Source: Rhodopseudomonas palustris HaA2 (lineage in GTDB: Bacteria; Pseudomonadota; Alphaproteobacteria; Rhizobiales; Xanthobacteraceae). From it: DNA of 64,000 nucleotides. Position numbers and translations under genes: made by a program. A model generated the notes under the pieces. The model worked only from the letters and a program-made list of their open reading frames with translations. It did no database searches and was not told where the DNA came from. Below, in pieces: positions 31,144 through 41,818 of the stretch; the first letter of the stretch is position 1, and each line of letters starts with the position of its first letter. The DNA lies in contig NC_007778.1 of NCBI RefSeq assembly GCF_000013365.1, forward strand, positions 744,001 to 808,000. Direction: 5' to 3'.

Positions 31144-31481
31144 GGCGTCGACGCATAAGCTCCCGCCGCCGCGAGTTCAACCGCCCCGTCGGCTCGGCTC
31201 GCGCCGCAGCCGATCCACGCGTGAAGCACGGTGCGCGTCATGGAGCGGCCGACCGGTCATCGACCGGCTCGATTCGACGATTCAGCAGCCGGAGGACCCG
31301 AGAGGTCGAGCAGCAGGGCATCGGGAAAGATCACCAAGACCACGTGACGTTCGACCGGCCCGTCCGCCGCATCTCTGTTCGGCCGGGCGTGGTCTTGCGC
31401 TGCTTCGTCGCGCTTTGGTTCGTCGATGCACAGCAGCCGACCTTTGCGGCGTTGATCAGCGCAGGTCCGGTGCGAGCCGAG
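31144..31481. other. 338-base gap with no recognisable gene
   Basis: Lies between the YgiQ start and the LysR stop. Several open frames cross it on both strands, but none has family features or a convincing start. It must hold the ygiQ promoter and is the left border of the 31.5-40.8 kb catabolic cluster. I saw no direct repeats, tRNA fragment or integrase remnant. Confidence 0.5.
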
Positions 31482-32396
31482 CTAACCGTCTTCCTTGAGG
31501 ATCTTCGCAGCCGTTTCGCACATCCATTTGATGCCCATGTCGCTGGCGAAGCGCGAGTGGCTGTGCACTTTCACCTCGATCAGGGGCAGGTCGAACGGCA
31601 GATCGAGCAGACGAAAGTCCTTCGCTCGGTGAAGGCGGAGCGCCAGGGATTCGGGAAAAATCGCCGCCAAGTCGGAGTGGCGCACGATCTCCGGCGCGAC
31701 CATGAAATGCCCGCGGACGGCGATTTGAGGTCCGGCGCCTCTGTCCGAGAACCACTGCTCGATCGGTTGATGATGAACCGGAGAAGTTATTCTCGCATAG
31801 AAGAAGCGCAGCCCGGCGCAATTCGACTTCCTGAGTCCGGTTCGGCCGATCGGGTGACCGGCGCGAACGATGCAGACGAAGCGATCGTTGAAGATGTCGA
31901 TGCTGCTGCAGTCCTCCTCGCCGTTCTTGACGTAGCCGATGGCCAGATCGACTTCTCCCGAGCGCATCGCGCCGACGACCGCGTCGGGTGCAAGCGGGAC
32001 GACGTCGATCCGCGCCAACGGGGCGATACGTGTCAGTTTCGTCATCAGTTGAGGCAATGAGTAGACCTCGGCGATATCGGACATCGCGATCCGGAAGGTC
32101 CTCTGGGTCACCTGGGGATCGAACGCGACGCGCTCTTTGAGCGCGCGATTGATGATCGCGAATGCCTGATCGAGCGGCTCATGCAGACGAACGGCCGCGT
32201 CGGTGGGTAGCATGCGGTTCGCCGCGCGCACGAAGAGCGGATCGTTGAAGCGATCGCGCAGGCGCCGCAACGCATGACTGATCGCGGGCTGCGTCAGGCC
32301 GAGACGGTCCCCGGCTGCCGTGAGACTGCGCAAGTCCCAGATCGCGAGAAAGACCCGCAAGAGATTGAGGTCGAGGCTCTCATTCGTTTCGTTCAT
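31482..32396 (-). CDS. LysR-type transcriptional regulator
   Basis: A 304-residue regulator. The N-terminal winged helix-turn-helix (about residues 9-68) reads LDLNLLRVFLAIWDLRSLTAAGDRLGLTQPAISHALRRLR, close to the NodD/NahR-like branch of LysR proteins. The remainder is the periplasmic-binding-like effector domain (about 93-300) that senses a small molecule. It is transcribed divergently from the amidase-transporter-monooxygenase genes across a 92-base gap holding a T-N11-A site, the standard arrangement for a LysR regulator that activates its neighbours. The effector is probably the pathway substrate or product. Confidence 0.93.
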   Translation of the reverse strand: MNETNESLDLNLLRVFLAIWDLRSLTAAGDRLGLTQPAISHALRRLRDRFNDPLFVRAANRMLPTDAAVRLHEPLDQAFAIINRALKERVAFDPQVTQRTFRIAMSDIAEVYSLPQLMTKLTRIAPLARIDVVPLAPDAVVGAMRSGEVDLAIGYVKNGEEDCSSIDIFNDRFVCIVRAGHPIGRTGLRKSNCAGLRFFYARITSPVHHQPIEQWFSDRGAGPQIAVRGHFMVAPEIVRHSDLAAIFPESLALRLHRAKDFRLLDLPFDLPLIEVKVHSHSRFASDMGIKWMCETAAKILKEDG

Positions 32397-32404
32397 GATG
32401 CAGA

Positions 32405-32417
32405 TTATAACTATGAA
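32405..32417. promoter_or_regulatory. Candidate LysR-binding T-N11-A site
   Basis: TTATAACTATGAA has the T-N11-A spacing of LysR sites with partial dyad symmetry (TT...AA ends). It lies directly before the -35 of the predicted amidase promoter and 9 bases before the lysR start codon, a position suited to activation of one gene and autoregulation of the other. Confidence 0.4.
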
Positions 32418-32418
32418 T

Positions 32419-32447
32419 TTGACTTACATCAATGCGCCATCAAAAAT
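32419..32447 (+). promoter_or_regulatory. Predicted promoter of the catabolic operon
   Basis: TTGACT (32419-32424), a 17-base spacer and AAAAAT (32442-32447). The -35 is good, the -10 weak, as expected of an activator-dependent promoter. The start would fall near 32454, about 35 bases before the amidase GTG. Confidence 0.45.
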
Positions 32448-32488
32448 CGCTCATGATCCGATGATGGATCGAGCCGTCGAGAGAGCGC

Positions 32489-34048
32489 GTGGGAATCCAC
32501 TTCAACTCAGCTTCTGATCTGCTCGCATTGATGAATGCGAGAGAGATTTCCAGCGTCGAACTCCTCCGGCACTTCATCCAACAAATCGAAAGCTTCGACG
32601 GGCGGATCAACGCCGTCGTCAGCCGTGACTTCGAGCGTGCGCTCGACCGCGCAAAGGCGGCGGACGGGACGCGCGCTCGATCGGCCGTCGGAGAATTGGG
32701 CCGCCTTCACGGTCTGCCCATGACCGTCAAGGAGTCATTCGACGTCTCCGGGCTTCCCACCAGTTGGGGCACGGTCTCGTATGCGGGCAACGTCGCCAAA
32801 CGCGATGCCGACGCCGTCGCGCGCCTCGTCGGTGCCGGCGCTGTCGTGTTCGGCAAGACCAACGTGCCGGAAGGGCTTGCCGACGTGCAAACGTCGAATC
32901 CGCTGCACGGCAGGACCAGCAATCCGTGGGACCATGCGCGGACTTGCGGGGGCTCGTCCGGCGGTTCGGCGGCGGCGCTGGCGGCCGGCTTCACGGCGGT
33001 GGAGCTCGGCAGCGATCTTGCGGGATCGCTGCGGGTGCCCGCGCATTTCTGCGGTGTCTTCAGCCACAAGCCGTCCTACGGGCTAGTGCCCCAGAACGGA
33101 CACTCGATCGATGCCGACGAGTCCCAAACGGATATGACCGTCCTTGGACCGATGGCGCGGTCGGCGTCGGATCTGCGCCTGTTGCTCGAGATTCTGGCCG
33201 GACCGGGCGGCTTCGATGCGGGCGGCTGGGTGCTGCAGCTGCCCAAGGCGCGCGGCAACAGATTGAGCGATTTCCGGGTGGCAGTGCTGCCGAACCACGG
33301 AGCTTGCGAGGTCGATCAGGGCATTCAAGCGTCGATCGAAAATCTCGCCCGCGCCCTCCAGCGCAGCGGAGCCGAGGTCGATTTCGACGTGGAGTGGCCC
33401 GTCGACCTGGAACTGTGCTTTCAGGACTTCATGATGATGACGCGCGCGGTCGGCTCCAGGCGTGCATCGCCGGACCTTCTGAAGCGGATGTCGGACGAGG
33501 CGATGACGTTGCGGAGCGACGACCGCAGCTATCGCGCCGCGATCCGGCGTGCGGCGGGGATGAGCCATCACGCCTGGTTGTCGCTGCACAGCCGCCGGAG
33601 CGAATATCGTGCGGCCTGGCAACGCTTCTTCCGGTCCTACGACGTCGTGCTTTGCCCGGTTCATGCCTCGCTTGCTTTTGTGCACGATACCGCAGGCCCG
33701 CGGGAGAACCGGCTGCTCGACATCAACGGTCGGCAGCAGGACTACAGTCAATCCCTGTTCTGGATGGCGATCGCTGGGCTCAGCTACCTGCCGTCCACCG
33801 TTCGGCCGGTGTCGCTCGTCGGCGGACTTCCGACCGGCGTCCAGATCATCGGGCCGTATCTGGAAGACATGACCACGCTTCGCTTTGCGGAGCTTCTGGA
33901 CGAACTCTGTCCTCACCTGACCTATCCGTTCCAGGCGGCCGGTTCCCGGTCGAGCGTCGACGGACAGGGCTCGACAGGTCGGCAAGCGCAGACGGACGGA
34001 TCGGGTATTCAGCCCGGCATTTTGAGAACCGAAGGAGAAAAAGCGTGA
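32489..34048 (+). CDS. Amidase-signature hydrolase
   Basis: A 519-residue amidase-signature enzyme that should hydrolyse a carboxamide to acid plus ammonia or amine. The Ser-cisSer-Lys triad can be placed: Lys81 in TVKESFD, Ser156 in GGSSGGSAAALAAG, and nucleophile Ser180 in GSDLAGSLRVPAHFCG; the 24-residue spacing between the two serines is the family norm. The usual TGGS before the nucleophile is LAGS here. The start is GTG 32489, preceded by GAGAGAGC-like purines. The product has no signal peptide, so it is cytosolic and would act after uptake. Its stop overlaps the binding-protein ATG (TGATG). The natural substrate is unknown; indole-3-acetamide or another aryl amide is only a guess. Confidence 0.92.
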   Translation: MGIHFNSASDLLALMNAREISSVELLRHFIQQIESFDGRINAVVSRDFERALDRAKAADGTRARSAVGELGRLHGLPMTVKESFDVSGLPTSWGTVSYAGNVAKRDADAVARLVGAGAVVFGKTNVPEGLADVQTSNPLHGRTSNPWDHARTCGGSSGGSAAALAAGFTAVELGSDLAGSLRVPAHFCGVFSHKPSYGLVPQNGHSIDADESQTDMTVLGPMARSASDLRLLLEILAGPGGFDAGGWVLQLPKARGNRLSDFRVAVLPNHGACEVDQGIQASIENLARALQRSGAEVDFDVEWPVDLELCFQDFMMMTRAVGSRRASPDLLKRMSDEAMTLRSDDRSYRAAIRRAAGMSHHAWLSLHSRRSEYRAAWQRFFRSYDVVLCPVHASLAFVHDTAGPRENRLLDINGRQQDYSQSLFWMAIAGLSYLPSTVRPVSLVGGLPTGVQIIGPYLEDMTTLRFAELLDELCPHLTYPFQAAGSRSSVDGQGSTGRQAQTDGSGIQPGILRTEGEKA

Positions 34049-35187
34049 TGGTGAAGTATGCGATTCTCGTTGCGGCTTGTCTGGTCATCGGTGGTGGCGG
34101 TCAGTCGAGCGCCCAGGAGATCAAGGTCGGTCTCACCGCCGATTTCACCGGCGCGACGGCGGCAGTCGGCGCCCCGTTCAAGCTCGCCGCCGAAATTTTC
34201 CCCGATCATCTGGGCGGACTGCCGGTCAAATGGATCGTGCTCGATGACGCGGGCAATACCTCGACGACGGTGAAGAATGCCCGCAAATTCGTCGACGAGG
34301 ACAAGGTCGACATCATCCTCGGCTCCAACACGATCCCGTCGACCGTCGCGATGTTCGGCATCGCGGCTCAGAGCGCAACGCCGCAAATCGCACTCGTTCC
34401 CGTCGACATCCCGACCGAGCAGCGGGCCTGGCTTTTCAATCTTCCGCAGTCGGCGCGGATCATGGTCGGCGCCATCGTCGACGATATGAAATCGCGTAAC
34501 TTCAAGCGGGTCGCGTTCATCGGCTACAATGACGGCTGGGGCGAACTCAACTGGAAGAATTTCGAGCAGTTGGCGAATGCCGGCGGCCTGCAGATCGTCG
34601 CCAAGGAACTCTACAGCCGCAATGATACGTCAGTCACCGCGCAAGTGCTCAAGCTGCTCGAAGCCAAGCCCGACGCGGTGTTCGTCGGAGCCTCCGCTAC
34701 GCCGGCGACACTTCCGCATCTGACGCTGAAGGACCAGGGCTTCAAGGGACAGATCTACCACACGCATGGCGCGGTTTCGAAACCGTTCCTGAACGCCGGC
34801 GGCAAGGAACTCGAGGGCGCTATTCTGCCGACCGGGCCGATCGTCGTTGCCGCCAGTCTTCCCGACAGCAATCCGATCAAGAAGGTCGGACTCGATTTCT
34901 CCGCGAAATACGCGGCCAAGTATGGTCCGGGCGCGCCCAATCCGTTCGCTGGATACGCATGGGATGCGATGCTCCTCCTCGAGGCGGCCGTCCCCGATGC
35001 GGCGGCGAAGGCGAAGCCGGGTACTCCCGAATTCCGATCGGCCCTGCGAGACTCGCTGGCGTCCGGCCGCGAAGTGGTCGGCACCCACGCGGTCTACAAA
35101 TTCACGGACCAGGATCGCTACGGCGTCGACGATCGATCGCGCGTGCTGGTGATCGTCAAGAACGGCGCTTTCGCTCTGTACAAATAG
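34048..35187 (+). CDS. Branched-chain-type ABC transporter binding protein
   Basis: A 379-residue periplasmic binding protein of the Liv (type I fold) family. The signal peptide is MVKYAILVAACLVIGGGGQSSAQ, cleaved after SAQ, and the mature part begins EIKVGLTADFTGATAAVG. KWIVLDDAGNTSTTVKNARKFVDEDKVDIILG is the conserved first-lobe segment. Liv-type proteins in soil alphaproteobacteria bind amino acids but also aromatic acids, amides and urea, so the ligand here is open. AAGGAG stands 9 bases before the ATG. It is the first transport gene after the amidase. Confidence 0.93.
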   Translation: MVKYAILVAACLVIGGGGQSSAQEIKVGLTADFTGATAAVGAPFKLAAEIFPDHLGGLPVKWIVLDDAGNTSTTVKNARKFVDEDKVDIILGSNTIPSTVAMFGIAAQSATPQIALVPVDIPTEQRAWLFNLPQSARIMVGAIVDDMKSRNFKRVAFIGYNDGWGELNWKNFEQLANAGGLQIVAKELYSRNDTSVTAQVLKLLEAKPDAVFVGASATPATLPHLTLKDQGFKGQIYHTHGAVSKPFLNAGGKELEGAILPTGPIVVAASLPDSNPIKKVGLDFSAKYAAKYGPGAPNPFAGYAWDAMLLLEAAVPDAAAKAKPGTPEFRSALRDSLASGREVVGTHAVYKFTDQDRYGVDDRSRVLVIVKNGAFALYK

Positions 35188-35248
35188 TCGGTGCCGCAGA
35201 CGCCACCGACAGACCGAATGCCGAACAGCAGACCATAGGTCGAGAACG

Positions 35249-36298
35249 ATGAATGGCACGATGGCGCTGATTTTGGCGCAGGACGGACTCACGACCGGCA
35301 TCATCTACGCCTTGCTGTCGTTGTCCATCCTGCTCGTGTTTCTCGTCACGCGCATCCTATGGGTGCCCGCCGGGGAGTTCGTCACCATGGGTGCGCTGAC
35401 GATGGGGATCTTGCAGAAGAACGAAGCGCCCGCGACGGTGTGGCTGCTCGCAGCCCTGGGCGCGGTCACGCTGCTGCGTGAGGCGATTCGCTCGTTCAGA
35501 ACGGGTCAGTGGAGCGGCTGGTGGCCCACCGTCGCGTTTTGCGCCGGGATTCCGGCCGTGGTCGTCGTCGCGACGCTGAAGCTGGCGCCGATGGGGCTGC
35601 CGATCTTTGCCCAGGTGCTCCTCACTCTGGCGATCACGGTGCCGATGGCGCCGATGATCTATCGAAGCGCGTTCATGGATCTCGCCGGCTCATCGGTGCT
35701 CGTCCTGCTCTTCGTCGCCGTCGCCGTGCACTATCTGTTGACGGGCCTCGGCCTCGTCTTCTTCGGACCCGACGGAATGCGCACCGCGCCGTTCATTCCG
35801 GGCCGGCTGGATATCGGCTTCACGCGTATTTCCTGGCACCTGCTGCTGGTCGTCGCGGTCGCCCTGTCGCTCACAGCGATCCTGTTCGCATTCTTCGAGC
35901 GGACGTTCTGGGGGAAATCCATGCGGGCGGTGGCCGTCAACCGGAAGGGCGCCCGGCTGGTCGGGATCAAGCCGGAAACGGCGGGAACGATCGCGTTCAG
36001 CATCGCCGGCCTGATTGGATGCCTGTCGGGAATCCTGATCGCGCCGGTCACCGGGATTTACTACGACAGCGGGTTCCTGATCGGACTGAGAGGCTTCGTC
36101 GGCGCGGTGCTGGGTGGGCTCGCGAGTTTTCCGACCGCGATCGTAGGCTCGATATTCGTCGGCCTGTTCGAGAGCTACGCATCCTTCTTCGCATCGGCTT
36201 ACAAGGAAGCCATCGTATTTTCTCTTCTGGTTCCGATCCTGATCTGGCGTTCCGTCGTCGAACGGCGCCGGAGCGGATTGTCGGACGACGCGGAGTGA
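35249..36298 (+). CDS. Liv-type ABC transporter permease (LivH)
   Basis: A 349-residue inner-membrane permease with about eight to nine helices. The N-terminal GIIYALLSLSILLVFLVTRILWVPAGEFVTMGA is the LivH opening. Near the C-terminus, SMRAVAVNRKGARLVGIKPETAGTIAFSIAGLIGCLSGIL carries the EAA-like coupling loop. An extra loop of about 40 residues (about 70-110) makes it longer than typical LivH proteins. It lies 61 bases after the binding protein and two bases before the fused LivM-LivG gene. Confidence 0.92.
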   Translation: MNGTMALILAQDGLTTGIIYALLSLSILLVFLVTRILWVPAGEFVTMGALTMGILQKNEAPATVWLLAALGAVTLLREAIRSFRTGQWSGWWPTVAFCAGIPAVVVVATLKLAPMGLPIFAQVLLTLAITVPMAPMIYRSAFMDLAGSSVLVLLFVAVAVHYLLTGLGLVFFGPDGMRTAPFIPGRLDIGFTRISWHLLLVVAVALSLTAILFAFFERTFWGKSMRAVAVNRKGARLVGIKPETAGTIAFSIAGLIGCLSGILIAPVTGIYYDSGFLIGLRGFVGAVLGGLASFPTAIVGSIFVGLFESYASFFASAYKEAIVFSLLVPILIWRSVVERRRSGLSDDAE

Positions 36299-36300
36299 CC

Positions 36301-38052
36301 ATGCGCTGGCTCTCGATCGCCGTCATCGGTCTGCTCTGCATCGTTCCGATCGCGTTTCCGACGTCGTATCTCACGCCGTTGAACTACGTCGGTCTGAATG
36401 CGATCATCTGCGTCGGTCTCGTTCTGCTCGCCGGGGTCGTCGGATTGGCCTCGTTCGGCCAGGCCGCCTTCGTCGGCACGAGCGCCTACACGGCGGCTCT
36501 TCTCAGCACCAAGCTCGGGTGGTCGGCCTGGGAAACGCTTCCCGCAGCGTTATTGGTGACCGCCACGTCCGCTCTGGGTCTGAGCTGGCTCACGATCAGG
36601 CTTTCCGGCCACTATCTCGTGCTCGGCACCCTCGCATGGGGAACCGCGCTCTATTATTTGTTCGGCAATGTCGCGTTCTTGGGAGGTTATAACGGGATAT
36701 CCGGAATCCATCCGGTCACCCTGTTCGGAATCTCGTTCGGCGATACGCGCGCTGTCTATTGGCTGATATGGGCCTGCGTCGCGATCGCCATGATGTTGAC
36801 GGCCAATCTGCTCGACAGCCGCACCGGAAGAGCGCTGCGGGTCGTCCGACACACCATCATGGCTGCGAGCTTCGGGATCGATGTCTCGAAGCTGAAGACC
36901 AAAGCCTTCGTGCTCGCCGCGGTTTTTGCCGGCGTGACTGGATGGTTGACCGCCCATTATCTCGGGGTCGTCAACCCGGGTCCTTTCAATGCGAACAGCT
37001 CGATCGACTACATGTTCATGGTCGTCGTCGGTGGCTCGTCGCACCTTGCCGGCGCGCTGGTCGGGCCGGCGGTCGTCGAGTTCCTTCGAAACTGGCTTCG
37101 TGAAACCCTGCCGAACCTGATCGGCGGCTCGAGCAGTTTCGAGCTGAGTGTCTTCGGACTCATGATGGTGCTGCTGCTGCAAGGCGCCGGCGGCGGCATT
37201 ATGACGTATGTTTCGCGCTACCTGCCGATGCGGTCGAAGCGCAAGGTGTCGCCGGAAGGCGAACGCCCGCCGCGCCGCTCGCGACTCGCGCCGGGTGAAG
37301 CGCTGCTGAAGGTGCAGCGCGCAAGCAAGAATTTCGGCGGACTCGTCGCCGTCAACGAAGTGACCTTCGAGGTCGCGGCCGGTGAGATCGTTGCGCTGAT
37401 CGGACCAAACGGGGCCGGCAAGAGCACGTTGTTCAACCTGATCACGGGCGTCCTGCCCCTGACGCGCGGTGAAGTGTGGTTTCGCGGTGATCGCATCGAT
37501 GCGCTGCCGACCCACGGACTTGTCGAGCGCGGCATCGCGCGGACGTTTCAGCACGTCATTCTCCAGCCCGACATGTCGGTGTTGGAGAACGTCGCCGTCG
37601 GTGCGTACCATCGGACGACTGCCGGTGCGTTGGCGTCGATGTTCCGACTCGATCGGCGCCAGGAAGAGCGTCTGCTCCGTGAAGCGCAGTACCAATTGGA
37701 ACAAGTCGACCTGGCTGCGGAAGCCGACGTCGCGGCCGGCAATCTGCCTCTTGGCAAGCAGCGCGTTCTGGAAATCGCCCGTGCGTTGGCCGCCGATCCA
37801 CTGATCCTGCTGCTCGACGAACCGGCAGCCGGCTTGCGTTTCCAGGAGAAGCAGGCGCTTGCCGACGTGCTGCGATCGCTCCGGGCCGAGGGCATCTCGG
37901 TGCTGATCGTCGAGCACGATATGGACTTTGTGATGAATCTCGTCGACCGGCTCGTCGTGCTCGACCACGGCGAGCGGATCGCGGCGGGAACGCCGCTCGA
38001 GATTCAGAACGATCCGACAGTGATCGAAGCCTATCTGGGAGGGGTCGATTGA
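36301..38052 (+). CDS. Fused Liv-type permease (LivM) and ATPase (LivG)
   Basis: A 583-residue fusion of two transporter parts. Residues 1-305 form a LivM permease with GLVLLAGVVGLASFGQAAFVG and a coupling region GRALRVVRHTIMAASFGIDVSKLKTKAFV. After a short basic linker (about 308-332) comes a LivG ATPase: Walker A GPNGAGKST (368-376), a FQHVILQPDMSVLENV Q-loop region, a degenerate signature LPLGKQRVLEIARAL, and Walker B ILLLDEPAAGL. The H-loop reads IVEHDMDFV. The C-terminus has the LivG-type NDPTVIEAYLGG. Fusion of this kind is known in some Liv systems, but here LivH and LivF remain separate. Its stop overlaps the livF ATG. Confidence 0.93.
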   Translation: MRWLSIAVIGLLCIVPIAFPTSYLTPLNYVGLNAIICVGLVLLAGVVGLASFGQAAFVGTSAYTAALLSTKLGWSAWETLPAALLVTATSALGLSWLTIRLSGHYLVLGTLAWGTALYYLFGNVAFLGGYNGISGIHPVTLFGISFGDTRAVYWLIWACVAIAMMLTANLLDSRTGRALRVVRHTIMAASFGIDVSKLKTKAFVLAAVFAGVTGWLTAHYLGVVNPGPFNANSSIDYMFMVVVGGSSHLAGALVGPAVVEFLRNWLRETLPNLIGGSSSFELSVFGLMMVLLLQGAGGGIMTYVSRYLPMRSKRKVSPEGERPPRRSRLAPGEALLKVQRASKNFGGLVAVNEVTFEVAAGEIVALIGPNGAGKSTLFNLITGVLPLTRGEVWFRGDRIDALPTHGLVERGIARTFQHVILQPDMSVLENVAVGAYHRTTAGALASMFRLDRRQEERLLREAQYQLEQVDLAAEADVAAGNLPLGKQRVLEIARALAADPLILLLDEPAAGLRFQEKQALADVLRSLRAEGISVLIVEHDMDFVMNLVDRLVVLDHGERIAAGTPLEIQNDPTVIEAYLGGVD

Positions 38053-38810
38053 TGACCGATATCCTGCTGGATGCCCGCGACATCTCCGTCACCTACGGCA
38101 AGGTCGAAGCCGTCAGAGGCGTCGCAGTTCAGGTGACGCGTGGCCAGATCGTAACCGTCATCGGACCGAACGGCGCGGGCAAGAGCAGCCTGCTGAATGC
38201 GCTCATGGGCGTCGTGCCGTGTTCCGGCCGGATCGTTTTCGGGGATGCGGAAATTGCGCGCCTCGCGGTGGAAGACCGTGTGGCGCAAGGCGTTTGCCTC
38301 GTTCCGGAAAGCCGGGAGTTGTTCGCCGACATGACGGTGCTGGATAATCTCGTCCTGGGCACCTATTCGCGGTTTCGCAAAGGCGAACGGAATTTCAAGG
38401 CCGACATCGAAACCGTCTATGAGCTGTTTCCCCGGCTCGGCGAGCGGCGGGCGCAGCGTGCAGGGACGCTGTCGGGCGGCGAACGCCAGATGCTCGCGAT
38501 CGGGCGGGCGCTGATGGCGCGTCCGAACCTGCTGATGCTGGACGAGCCGTCCTTGGGGTTGGCGCCACTGATCGTCCGCGAGATCCTTCGGGTCGTCGTC
38601 TCGCTTCGCGAGCGCGGCGTCGCGCTCCTCGTCGTCGAGCAGAATGCAAAGGCCGCCCTTCAGATCGCCGACTATGGCTACGTGATCGAAGGCGGCCGGG
38701 TGGTCATGGAAGGCGCCGCGGCTGAATTGCAGGGCAATGCACGCGTCGTCGCCACCTATCTCGGTGCCGCCAGCGGCAAGGCGCCGAGCGCCGCGGAAGG
38801 ATCAGCATGA
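38052..38810 (+). CDS. Liv-type ABC transporter ATPase (LivF)
   Basis: A 252-residue ABC ATPase. It begins LLDARDISVTYGKVEAVRGV and has Walker A GPNGAGKSS and the LivF-specific VPESRELFADMTVLDNLVLG. The signature is LSGGERQMLAIGRALMARP and Walker B LLMLDEPSLGLAP. The H-loop is in VVEQNAKAALQIAD. The ATG shares one base with the stop of the fused gene. With LivH and LivM-LivG this completes a full importer. Confidence 0.94.
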   Translation: MTDILLDARDISVTYGKVEAVRGVAVQVTRGQIVTVIGPNGAGKSSLLNALMGVVPCSGRIVFGDAEIARLAVEDRVAQGVCLVPESRELFADMTVLDNLVLGTYSRFRKGERNFKADIETVYELFPRLGERRAQRAGTLSGGERQMLAIGRALMARPNLLMLDEPSLGLAPLIVREILRVVVSLRERGVALLVVEQNAKAALQIADYGYVIEGGRVVMEGAAAELQGNARVVATYLGAASGKAPSAAEGSA

Positions 38811-38926
38811 ATGTCGGTCCATCGACTGACCGGGCTCGGAGGGCGTGGCGACGGCTGCGCTTGAAGATCGCAAAAGCAGTCGGGCGACACGACGACGGCG
38901 ACCGAATTTGTCTCGAAAGATCATAG
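38807..38926 (+). CDS. Possible 39-residue ORF after livF
   Basis: Starts with an ATGA overlapping the livF stop and ends 12 bases before the monooxygenase ATG, filling most of the gap. The product is basic (MNVGPSTDRARRAWRRLRLK at its start) with no recognisable feature. It could be a coupled small protein or chance; the gap may simply be leader for the monooxygenase. Confidence 0.2.
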   Translation: MNVGPSTDRARRAWRRLRLKIAKAVGRHDDGDRICLERS

Positions 38927-38938
38927 AGGAGTACTCGA

Positions 38939-40159
38939 ATGAACCACATGAATGTGTCCAAGGGCGAATCCTGGAGCGGGTCGCGCGCGTCCGACTTCGA
39001 CTACAGGGCCGCGGCTCGCGCGATCCTGCCACGCCTGGCCGCGACGTCGGACAGCAGCGAGCGCCTGCGCAGGCTGGACGACGATGCCGCCGCGGCACTC
39101 CGCGGATCGGGCCTGGCCCGCGTTCTGACGCCGAAGAAATTCGGCGGCTTCGAGCTCTCCCCAAGCGCCCACATCTGGACCTGTGCGGAACTCGCCCAGG
39201 GCTGTTCGGCCGCAAGCTGGGTGTTGATGGTTTGTGTGGCCCACGACTACATCGTCGGACGGTTCTCGGAAGAGTGCCAGAAGGAAGTCTATGACGGCGA
39301 CGCCGACAACCTGCTCGCCGGCGCCCTGGCTCCGCAGGGCACGATCGAACGCACCGCCGGCGGTTGGCGTCTCAATGGGCGTTGGCAATTCGGCAGCGGC
39401 TGCGACCATTCTCCCTGGTTCATTCTCGGCACCAAGGTGGTCAATCCGGACTCGGGCGGCTATCTCAACTACCATGTGATGGTGCCGCGGGCGGACATCG
39501 AGATCGACGATACGTGGTACACGCTCGGCATGCGCGGAACAGGATCGAAAGATCTCGTCGCACGCGATGTGCTCGTGCCCGACTATCGGGCGATGCCGAC
39601 CTATCCGACCTTCATGGGGTCGACCCCGCATACGAACAGTCCCGTCTATCGCTTGCCCGTCTATGCCGGTCTTTCGTCGATGCTGTCGGGCACCGTGCTC
39701 GGGATGGCGGAGCGCGGCTTGAAGCACTTCATCGAGCGGACCTCCGCCCGCAGGACCGCCCATGGCGTATCGAAGGCGGAGAACGCCAACATGCAACAAC
39801 GAGTGGCGGAGTCGACGGCCGAAGTCGCCGCCGCCCGGCGGCTGCTGGAAAACATCTGCGAGCGCTTCGATCAGGCGATGGTTGCCGACCAGGGGCCGAT
39901 GTCCGCCAGCGACCGCGTCCAGTTCCGGTGGGACGCGGCCTATGTCGTCGAACTGAGCCGACGGGCGATCGATCGGGTGTTCGCCGCTTCCGGCGCACAC
40001 GGAGTCTACGAGGGCAGCCCGGTGTATCGCGCCTACCGCGATATCAACACGGCCTGCCATCACGCGGTGATCGACTTCGACACGGTCTCTGGATTACGCG
40101 GGCAGATCGCCCTGCTCGGCGACATCGGCGAGAACCCCCGTTCGGTGCCTCTCGCCTAG
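38939..40159 (+). CDS. Flavin-dependent monooxygenase, acyl-CoA dehydrogenase fold
   Basis: A 406-residue group D flavoprotein monooxygenase of the HsaA / p-hydroxyphenylacetate hydroxylase C2 type, which uses reduced flavin supplied by a partner to hydroxylate an aromatic ring. The fold is that of acyl-CoA dehydrogenases: N-terminal helices (1-120), a beta domain with GRWQFGSGCDHSPWFILG, and a C-terminal helical domain that retains R-rich flavin contacts rather than acyl-CoA-binding features. The acyl-CoA dehydrogenase catalytic glutamate context is absent. AGAGGAG lies nine bases before the ATG. A flavin reductase gene 133 bases downstream is the expected partner. The substrate is unknown; phenolic or indolic acids are plausible. 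Confidence 0.85.
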   Translation: MNHMNVSKGESWSGSRASDFDYRAAARAILPRLAATSDSSERLRRLDDDAAAALRGSGLARVLTPKKFGGFELSPSAHIWTCAELAQGCSAASWVLMVCVAHDYIVGRFSEECQKEVYDGDADNLLAGALAPQGTIERTAGGWRLNGRWQFGSGCDHSPWFILGTKVVNPDSGGYLNYHVMVPRADIEIDDTWYTLGMRGTGSKDLVARDVLVPDYRAMPTYPTFMGSTPHTNSPVYRLPVYAGLSSMLSGTVLGMAERGLKHFIERTSARRTAHGVSKAENANMQQRVAESTAEVAAARRLLENICERFDQAMVADQGPMSASDRVQFRWDAAYVVELSRRAIDRVFAASGAHGVYEGSPVYRAYRDINTACHHAVIDFDTVSGLRGQIALLGDIGENPRSVPLA

Positions 40160-40292
40160 CGGCTTCCAAGCCGCCCTGGTCCGGATGGAGCATGGCACGA
40201 CGGCGGGGAAACGCGGCCCCGCGCGGACTTGCTCTATCCGGCCTCTCGCAGATCGGATCCCAGAACATCAATCATCTTCGAGGCAGTTCGAC

Positions 40293-40817
40293 ATGGCGAC
40301 GACTGAAGTGGCAACGGACGGAGAGATGCCGATCTCGTCGGCTGTCTTCAAGCAGAGCATGCGCCTTCTGGCCGGCGGCGTCTGCATTGTCGCGAGTGCC
40401 AAGGATGGCGAGCGGCTAGGACTCACCATGACGGCGGTCTGTTCGTTGACGCTCGACCCGCCTACGCTGATAGCTTGCGTCAACCGCGACGCAGGCGCCC
40501 ACGCCTTGATGCGTTCGACCAGACGCATCAGCGTGAATCTGCTAGGCGCGGACCACGCCGAACTCGCCGAACGGTTCGCGTCGTCGAGCATCAAGGGGGC
40601 CGCGCGGTTCGACCTCGCGACATGGGTCGACATGGAAAGCGGTGTCCCGGCATTGGCGGACGCGTTGGCCGTGCTGGACTGCGAGATTTTCGAAGAAACC
40701 TCGGTCGGCCAGCATTCGGTGTTCTTCTGCGAGGTGAAAGCCGCCCGTGTTCAGCCGGCGAAGGAACCGCTGGTGCATTTCAATCGCGAGTTCCGCGGAT
40801 TGATACCGGTCGGCTGA
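40293..40817 (+). CDS. Flavin reductase of a two-component monooxygenase
   Basis: A 174-residue flavin reductase (FMN-binding split-barrel, HpaC/DIM6-NTAB family) that reduces FMN or FAD with NAD(P)H for the monooxygenase. Family features are FKQSMRLLAGGVCIVASAKDG near the N-terminus, GLTMTAVCSLTLDPPTLIACVN in the flavin-binding loop, and ISVNLLGADHAELAERF. ATG 40293 starts MATTEVATDGEMP; the longer open frame upstream lacks a good start. It is the last gene of the cluster and is convergent with ku two bases later. Confidence 0.92.
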   Translation: MATTEVATDGEMPISSAVFKQSMRLLAGGVCIVASAKDGERLGLTMTAVCSLTLDPPTLIACVNRDAGAHALMRSTRRISVNLLGADHAELAERFASSSIKGAARFDLATWVDMESGVPALADALAVLDCEIFEETSVGQHSVFFCEVKAARVQPAKEPLVHFNREFRGLIPVG

Positions 40818-40819
40818 CC

Positions 40820-41818
40820 TCACCCCGCCTTGCGGGCCTTGCCGCCGGCGGTGCTGCGTGCGGGCTTCTTTGCCTTGCCGGCCTCCTCTTTCGAGCCGGC
40901 GGTCTTGGCGCCGCTGATCGGCAGCAGCATTTCCTTCTGGCCGGGCGCGGTCTTGCGCTTCTTCGGCTTGGCGGATGTCGCGACAGGCTTCTCCGCGGCG
41001 GCAGCCTTCGCGGCCGGCGCAGCCTTCGCGGCCGGCGGCGCCTTGGCGTCGCCGAGGCTCCGGCGTAGCGCGTCCATCAGGTCGACGACGTTGTCGCCGC
41101 GCGGGCGCGCCTTGGCGGCGAGCGGCTGGCCGCTGACCTTCTTGTTGATCAGCTCCGTCAGCGCGCTCTCGTAGTGATCCTCGAACAGCTCGGGCTGGAA
41201 ATGGCCGGACTTCTGCTCGACGATATGCCGGGCGAGATCGAGCATGTCCTTGGTGATCTTGACGTCCTGAATGTCGTCGAAATAATCCGCGGCGTCGCGG
41301 ACTTCGTACGGATAGCGCAGCAGCATCCCCATCAGGCCGTTGTCGCGCGCCTCCAGCGCGATGACGTGCTCGCGATTGGTCAGCACCACGCGGGCCAGCG
41401 CCACGCGGTCCATCGATCGGATGGTCTCGCGGATCACCGCATAGGCGTCATGGCCGACCTTGCCGTCGGGCACGATGTAGTACGGCCGCACCAGATACAG
41501 ATCGTCGATCTCGGATTTCGGCACGAACTGATCGATGTCGATCGTGCGGGTCGATTCCAGCGCGATGGCGTCGAGTTCGTCCTTGGTGATTTCGATATAA
41601 TTGTCGGTATCGACCTTGTAGCCCTTCATGATGTCGTCGGAGGCGACCTCCTCGCCGGTGTCGGCGTCGACTTTCAGGTATTTGATGCGATGGCCGGTGT
41701 TGCGGTTGATCTGGTTGAAGCTGATCTTCTCGGCGTCCGACGTGGCCGGAAACAGCGCCACCGGGCATGTCACCAGCGACAGCCGCAAAAAGCCTTTCCA
41801 GTTGGCACGGGGGGCCAT
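40820..41818 (-). CDS. ku: Ku protein of non-homologous end joining
   Basis: A 332-residue bacterial Ku homodimer subunit that binds DNA ends and recruits ligase D. It begins MAPRANWKGFLRLSLVTCPV, the usual opening. The core includes FNQINRNTGHRIKYLKVDADTGEEV and PYYIVPDGKVGHDAYAVIRETI. The C-terminus is a lysine/alanine/proline-rich tail (about 255-332), longer than in minimal Ku proteins, that may bind DNA or ligase. An upstream GTG would add five residues, but the ATG is preferred. No ligD is next to it in this window. It is convergent with the flavin reductase gene. Confidence 0.95.
   Translation of the reverse strand: MAPRANWKGFLRLSLVTCPVALFPATSDAEKISFNQINRNTGHRIKYLKVDADTGEEVASDDIMKGYKVDTDNYIEITKDELDAIALESTRTIDIDQFVPKSEIDDLYLVRPYYIVPDGKVGHDAYAVIRETIRSMDRVALARVVLTNREHVIALEARDNGLMGMLLRYPYEVRDAADYFDDIQDVKITKDMLDLARHIVEQKSGHFQPELFEDHYESALTELINKKVSGQPLAAKARPRGDNVVDLMDALRRSLGDAKAPPAAKAAPAAKAAAAEKPVATSAKPKKRKTAPGQKEMLLPISGAKTAGSKEEAGKAKKPARSTAGGKARKAG

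Follow-up and report, generated by a model that had tools for sequence, protein, structure and literature searches.

What do a divergent LysR gene, an amidase, a Liv-type importer, a flavin monooxygenase (FMO) and a flavin reductase do together in Rhodopseudomonas palustris HaA2? The window, meaning the whole 64,000-nucleotide stretch analysed (C1:744001-808000 in a genome of 5.33 Mb), carries these eight genes in a block at 31191..40809, in coordinates of the window. Judged from sequence, the block is best explained as an acquired, substrate-inducible island for uptake and attack of an aromatic or N-heteroaromatic compound, with a probability of about one half (0.52). LysR would sense the compound or its product, and drive the divergent amidase gene and the genes behind it. 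A substrate-binding protein (SBP) of the B-III class, together with LivH, LivMG and LivF, would bring in the compound, aromatic or N-heteroaromatic and probably bearing an acid group; once it is in the cytosol, its amide (or carbamate) bond would be cleaved by the amidase. The reductase would supply reduced flavin, FMO would oxygenate the ring, and the product would enter a pathway encoded elsewhere. The hydrolase and importer would be swappable modules on a LysR-FMO(-reductase) core. As relatives of lysR, FMO and reductase recur together elsewhere, their association appears to be more than chance. A published description of the gene set was not found in the open-access literature searched.

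The core and its cassettes in other genomes

Relatives of the FMO (38939..40159, plus strand), identified as a group D enzyme with the acyl-CoA dehydrogenase fold from Pfam, PDB relatives and a tree, are found in 34 of 391 genomes of the family at 1e-60, and in nine, HaA2 included, at a strength of at least 1e-130. Five of the 15 other members of the genus carry one (68-69% identity) and ten do not. Matches are present in 3/385 genomes of the class sample at 1e-90 (HaA2 and two at 43%) and in 1/398 of the phylum sample at 1e-130 (HaA2), the two samples overlapping. Eighteen loci were tabulated, a partner being counted at at least 40% identity over at least 60% of its length; L051 and L053, which duplicate the contigs of L011 and L019, were excluded. 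In nine loci of Bradyrhizobium/Rhodopseudomonas type (L009, L010, L011, L019, L052 and L054-L057) lysR is divergent from the FMO gene itself. On the other side of lysR lies a different set, cassette A (an amidohydrolase plus three ABC genes), complete in eight of the nine; L052 ends at a contig edge, with the cassette-A SBP visible. Pfam matches of the L019 copies identify the parts as a TRZ/ATZ-type amidohydrolase and the permease, ATPase and NMT1-type SBP of a NitT/TauT-type importer. The nearest relatives of the amidohydrolase are of the atrazine chlorohydrolase, MTA/SAH deaminase and 8-oxoguanine deaminase types, and it has no match in the HaA2 genome at 1e-10, a weak negative as the search had no positive control. 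The reductase gene follows FMO in eight of these nine loci, and FMO plus reductase are also seen in L058, where the contig is cut inside FMO.

A metagenome-assembled genome (MAG) of Acetobacteraceae (L013) has lysR (76% identity), amidase (70%) and FMO (80%) together. There the amidase and FMO genes overlap by ATGA and a TctC-type SBP follows FMO; no reductase or Liv gene was detected. Hydantoinase A/B, TctC, RidA-family (PF01042), TRAP DctP and amidohydrolase genes lie beside FMO in L012, from a MAG filed, unreliably, under Bordetella parapertussis, and two hydantoinase-like genes are near FMO in the more distant L017. The first-pass annotation had proposed a search for the same gene order: lysR, FMO and reductase do recur, as does lysR-amidase-FMO in L013, while the full set does not in the loci read. 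From the comparison of loci, it is therefore the C-N hydrolase and importer that vary, around a constant regulator and oxygenase.

A further shared element is a conserved 29-bp block at 32404..32432, a candidate LysR operator identified by comparison of 11 loci and a promoter scan. Beginning eight bases upstream of lysR (31482..32396, minus strand, from profile search), it recurs in every one of the 11 loci where lysR points away from an amidase or FMO gene; each of the ten outside the window shares 23-28 of the 29 bases with it. By comparison, identity is 41-48% at four-fold degenerate positions within lysR, and of the 56 bases beyond the block 8-20 agree, ungapped. The position of the block is the same whether the divergent gene is amidase (window, L013) or FMO (cassette A). 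Its minus strand reads TTGATG-N17-TATAAT (32432-32404), hexamers resembling a lysR promoter, and its plus strand holds the dyad TTGA-N6-TCAA (32419-32432); hexamers and dyad in such an arrangement are usual for LysR-type autoregulated divergent promoters. The 23-position core is single copy in the 5.33-Mb genome, with no further LysR sites at up to three mismatches. The block is read here as a candidate LysR site linking both arrangements to one inducer. The nearest solved relatives of the regulator are 1utb/1uth, which are presumably DntR, a regulator of nitroaromatic and salicylate genes.

This core of regulator, site and oxygenase with exchangeable hydrolase and importer was absent from the first-pass annotation and is the most interesting point of the locus. 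Tentatively, and with odds somewhat below even, it may serve as a plug-in oxygenase unit in a catabolic route, as yet undescribed, that handles a nitrogen-containing aromatic compound. Between lineages, the hydrolase (amidase, TRZ/ATZ-type amidohydrolase or hydantoinase/RidA set) and importer (Liv, NitT/TauT, TctC or TRAP) would have been swapped, and different nitrogen-linked precursors would thus feed one oxygenase.

Gene layout and predicted functions

All eight genes of the first-pass annotation were found, on the strands it gave. After a gap of 92 bp from lysR, the plus strand carries the amidase gene (32489..34048, GTG start), livK (34048..35187) overlapping it by one base, and, 61 bp on, livH (35249..36298, PF02653). 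Two bp further lies a gene for a LivM-LivG fusion of permease and ATPase (36301..38052; 583 amino acids; PF02653, BPD_transp_2, at 27-293 and PF00005, ABC_tran, at 352-509), overlapping livF by one base (38052..38810; PF00005, match scored on 38049-38810). FMO follows at 128 bp, and at another 133 bp the reductase gene (40293..40817; PF01613), 2 bp from Ku. The reductase is 71-72% identical to two cassette-A reductases and is the presumed partner of FMO; its start is most likely 40293 (ATG after GAGGCAG), rather than 40185. The importer had been called complete, and it is, in four genes, LivM being fused to LivG. The ATGA/TGATG overlaps described earlier hold for amidase-livK and livM-livG-livF, and nearly for livH-livM-livG, but not for FMO and reductase. 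Co-transcription from amidase to livF is likely, judged from spacing. Besides the site for lysR, the promoter scan found a weaker promoter-like site pointing towards the amidase. Plus-strand terminator-like sites occur inside livH and livM-livG, no more commonly than in shuffles, and none was found from livF to the reductase in the same scan, which finds such sites no oftener than in shuffles.

The SBP encoded by livK is closest in the PDB to 7ylt (E 7e-100) and to 3tx6/4f8j/4fb4 from the R. palustris group (E 4e-99). For Variovorax IadK2, the published account gives caffeate-bound 4FB4 as the closest fold and names eight pocket residues (PMC10374108). Seven of these eight fall in 7ylt at a single offset of 27, with Thr125 reading Ala, and no other offset from 0 to 59 yields three or more; 7ylt is thus inferred to be IadK2. 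In the window SBP, Y160, W164, R191, F300 and Y303 stand at IadK2 F168, W172, R199, F308 and Y311, so that four of the five key residues are retained. Tyr replaces Phe168, called conserved in B-III, and Ile and Pro replace Ser104 and Asn126. With aromatic-acid SBPs as nearest solved relatives, and Arg199 and Phe308 retained, the protein falls in the B-III aromatic-acid class, which points to an aromatic, probably acidic ligand. A plain amino-acid importer is disfavoured because scores are below the cut-offs of the classic branched-chain models of NCBIfam (LivG 248 vs. 362, LivF 249 vs. 441, LivH 50 vs. 379). The nearest SBPs in the family have 47-50% identity (7/198 genomes at 1e-110, HaA2 included), and none above 50% was found in the 197 others at that E-value. 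Six loci with these SBPs (L068-L073) have the same fused Liv set and no FMO of the window type. Most of these Liv sets lie among genes that, by the look of the sequence, resemble Mo-hydroxylase trios, CoA-transferases, a mutase and hydantoinases.

The amidase belongs to the amidase-signature family (PF01425, 314 bits vs. cut-off 27), and K81, S156 and S180 fit a Lys-Ser-Ser catalytic triad, with the spacing that we take to be typical of it. It scores 729 bits with the generic amidase model NF004816 (cut-off 503) and 182 with the indoleacetamide hydrolase model NF005688 (cut-off 532). Its nearest solved relatives are the urethanases 9sk0 and 8s7z, and it is 44% identical to a paralogue in the same genome.

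The nearest solved relatives of FMO are HsaA and HpaH C2. Kinship to proven acyl-CoA dehydrogenase-fold oxygenases, with a flavin reductase gene adjoining, places it among the two-component group D enzymes. H102, G128 and S153 correspond to C2 His120, Ser146 and Ser171, the first and last being retained; His120 is reported to stabilise the phenolate, and a Ser146 Ala mutant is slow (PMC10696468). In a 30-row tree FMO lies in a starred 12-row clade nested in a starred 18-row clade, outside the clades of HsaA/HpaH and of GraA-like proteins; it pairs with the L013 sequence at 94/91, which is not starred. L016 and L017, with gene calls cut at the N-terminus, were omitted from the tree, and distant family loci (33-38%) are represented in it by L030, L031, L032 and L034 only. 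All 18 rows of the FMO clade have Gly at the Ser146 position. As a sign that phenols are not the substrates, this was considered and rejected, because GraA-like and IacA-like proteins, among others, also carry Gly; the residue does not settle the substrate. A downstream route may exist, as the genome has three LigB-type ring-cleavage dioxygenase genes.

Probable acquisition and alternative explanations

The block was probably gained as one unit, because it interrupts a junction that is intact in a congener and its composition looks foreign. In that congener (G231, L106), a radical-SAM gene (PF08497), which we take to be YgiQ, and Ku adjoin, 198 bp apart. Homology to the window in blastn ends at 31190 and restarts at 40810, with approximately 140 bp between those points. 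GC content at third codon positions is 0.777-0.840 in the eight genes vs. a mean of 0.877 (sd 0.026) in 48 other window genes of at least 100 amino acids from a simple gene caller (Mann-Whitney p 1.3e-5), which favours gain over loss in G231. Ku was found in all 16 genus genomes examined, HaA2 included, and none of the eight genes is in the 12-kb Ku neighbourhoods of the six congeners read, out of 15. Neither flanking gene is a mobility gene by Pfam.

Several vehicles and boundaries were considered and rejected. There is no near-identity phage match and no plasmid record covering 80% of 32380-40200. The one tRNA-Arg is 3.8 kb away from the block, and the only repeat is a weak 47-nt, 79% match in direct orientation between 31361-31407, left of lysR, and 40919-40965, in the 3' part of the Ku gene. 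The latter is possibly a decayed trace of the entry of the block. In G199, the congener whose Ku is most similar, the junction is occupied by a different gene, sensor-kinase-like by its look (L105 8309-9223), and the radical-SAM gene is missing from the 12-kb stretch. The YgiQ-Ku junction may be a repeated insertion place.

Some observations weigh against the island reading. No reductase was detected beside FMO in L009 and L012, as in L013, nor lysR there in L012. Six distant FMO loci (L014-L018 and L020; 45-55%) have no core or cassette partner at the cut-off. Amidase, Liv importer and FMO are not together in any other locus read, and since cassette A uses another hydrolase class, the common chemistry is only C-N hydrolysis. 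The clean empty site is in one congener only, because the other five carry different genes on that side of Ku, and FMO and reductase are set off from their upstream neighbours by the gaps given above.

The first-pass annotation had predicted import, hydrolysis and then hydroxylation. The acquired unit, B-III importer, amidase residues, FMO with reductase and the L013 overlap bear out its parts, but not the order of hydrolysis before hydroxylation. The comparison supports coupling of C-N bond hydrolysis to flavin oxygenation, and leaves order and substrate without support. The principal alternative, by analogy with the Rut pathway, is that oxygenation comes first: FMO would attack an N-heteroaromatic compound, and the amidase or amidohydrolase would then open or trim the product. 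This is improbable on balance, at a little under one chance in four, yet several facts fit it: it is the hydrolase that changes between loci and FMO that stays, hydantoinase or RidA-family genes accompany FMO in L012 and L017, an Aminobacter plasmid (pAA04) combines RidA and an LLM-class FMO with a fused Liv importer, amidase and flavin reductase, and among NCBIfam models the reductase of the window scores best with RutF, albeit below cut-off (128 vs. 255). The position of the amidase gene, next to the regulator and before FMO in both L013 and the window, speaks against it, weakly with respect to reaction order. Somewhat less probable again is that two functions lie side by side, an unrelated uptake set having been inserted between parts of a LysR-FMO-reductase module. 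The scarcity of close SBPs in the family, the lack of such an FMO in the six SBP loci, the Liv-free lysR-amidase-FMO set of L013 and the gaps flanking FMO would agree with this. However, the amidase-FMO overlap and 70% amidase identity of L013 tie at least the amidase to FMO, the genes form one block of shared composition, and no terminator-like site separates livF from FMO, in a scan that performs no better than on shuffles.

Two further proposals have very little probability. One is an auxin role, as in the guess of indole-3-acetamide made in the first-pass annotation: this or another indole-acetate conjugate would be imported, cut to indole-3-acetate and hydroxylated. It draws on the likeness of parts to iac clusters, which hold the amidase IacH, the FMO IacA and the flavin reductase IacG, with a Liv importer in Marinomonas (PMC11373566), and on the match of the SBP to auxin-binding IadK2 with Trp172 retained. 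HaA2 also has its own iac-type cluster at C1:4441732-4455041 (L131, 1233-14542), with Liv importer, MarR and flavin reductase, to which LivF, LivMG, LivK and the reductase of the window are 56, 49, 42 and 41% identical; the two importers are thus related, which tells against a clean separation. Proteins of that cluster resemble those of a plasmid, L117, on which iac labels were assigned from the gene order amidase-IacA-...-IacG (IacA-like 48%, IacC 67%, IacD 55%, IacE 50%, IacI-like 34%). It includes a triple LivH-LivM-LivG fusion (954 amino acids), class II aldolase and ketopantoate-reductase-like genes, and no amidase was found among the genes called in it. The window FMO is not an IacA orthologue, the IacA-like protein and the iac-type FMO of the genome itself being on a far starred branch. 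The eight genes include no iacC/D/E/F/I-type gene and no MarR; Rieske, short-chain dehydrogenase/reductase (SDR) and SnoaL-type genes of iac kind are present elsewhere in the genome. The pocket replacements at Ser104 and Asn126 are also unfavourable. Indole-3-acetamide and iac membership were therefore rejected on FMO distance, the amidase model, the missing genes and the separate cluster. Because amidase and FMO are not iac orthologues and the genome has its own iac-type set, with importer and FMO, an auxin role for the block appears unneeded and unlikely, although an amide of indole-acetate might conceivably feed that pathway. Similarly improbable is breakdown of a xenobiotic carbamate or anilide, with a urethanase or aryl acylamidase and FMO acting on the released phenol or aminophenol. 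The nearest solved amidases and the phenol hydroxylases in the FMO superfamily recommend it, but the kinship to these urethanases is not close, and the substrate of an amidase does not follow from its family.

If the preferred reading of an uptake-and-attack island is correct, a small, probably recently acquired unit brings together the importer, hydrolase, oxygenase and sensor needed for a single class of compounds. Its substrate could then be revealed through the ligands of a single binding protein and the response of a single promoter region of 92 bp. Cassettes A and B would also be a natural experiment, with two hydrolases expected to make, or consume, the same partner of FMO.

Comparison with known systems

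Among two-component phenol hydroxylases, HsaAB and HpaH C1/C2 share fold, superfamily and the His120 and Ser171 counterparts with the window FMO. It differs in its identity of 33-34% to annotated plasmid HsaA/HpaH proteins, its separate supported clade, Gly at the Ser146 position, the lack of an adjoining ring-cleavage gene, and scores below both NCBIfam equivalog cut-offs (HsaA 253 vs. 450, HpaH C2 231 vs. 650). The GraA-like resorcinol hydroxylase type, labelled from gene context in L120, is two-component and has the same Gly, but is 33% identical and in another supported clade; its neighbours are MarR, gamma-resorcylate decarboxylase, ring-cleavage dioxygenase and maleylacetate reductase genes. 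A set in Rhodopseudomonas infernalis, compared by description only, has flavin reductase, 4-hydroxyphenylacetate-3-monooxygenase, catechol dioxygenase and ester cyclase genes opposed to LysR, with neither amidase nor importer in the set described (PMC9611603).

For the importer, the p-coumarate system of R. palustris (RPA1789, RPA1791-1793) also has a fused permease-ATPase (PMC3223731), and shares the B-III SBP class with the window, as does Variovorax IadK2; the pocket of the window SBP is mixed, however, with Ile and Pro beside the retained residues. The pAA04 set (L127 4288-16322) has the same Liv architecture and an amidase 26% identical to that of the window; RidA, the LLM-class FMO and an AMP ligase are also encoded there. 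The set resembles the window in plan although its oxygenase is unrelated, and it seems to be one more uncharacterised cluster directed at a nitrogen-containing compound. Cassette-A clusters, of which no published description was found in the literature searched, are homologous to the window in regulator, FMO, reductase and 29-bp block, and differ in hydrolase and importer class.

The first-pass annotation recognised no named system in this combination. This stands by descent of amidase and FMO, but not by gene content: a published iac cluster (PMC11373566) combines the same kinds of parts, namely amidase, group D FMO, flavin reductase and Liv importer. In the iac-ordered L117 the amidase gene overlaps the FMO gene, as in L013. 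The window proteins are 26% (FMO), 24% (amidase, to the IacH-like protein) and 24% (reductase) identical to those of L117, LysR stands where iac has MarR, and Rieske, SDR and SnoaL-type iac genes are missing from the block. Among named systems, iac is thus the nearest in gene composition, though not in the descent of the amidase and FMO.

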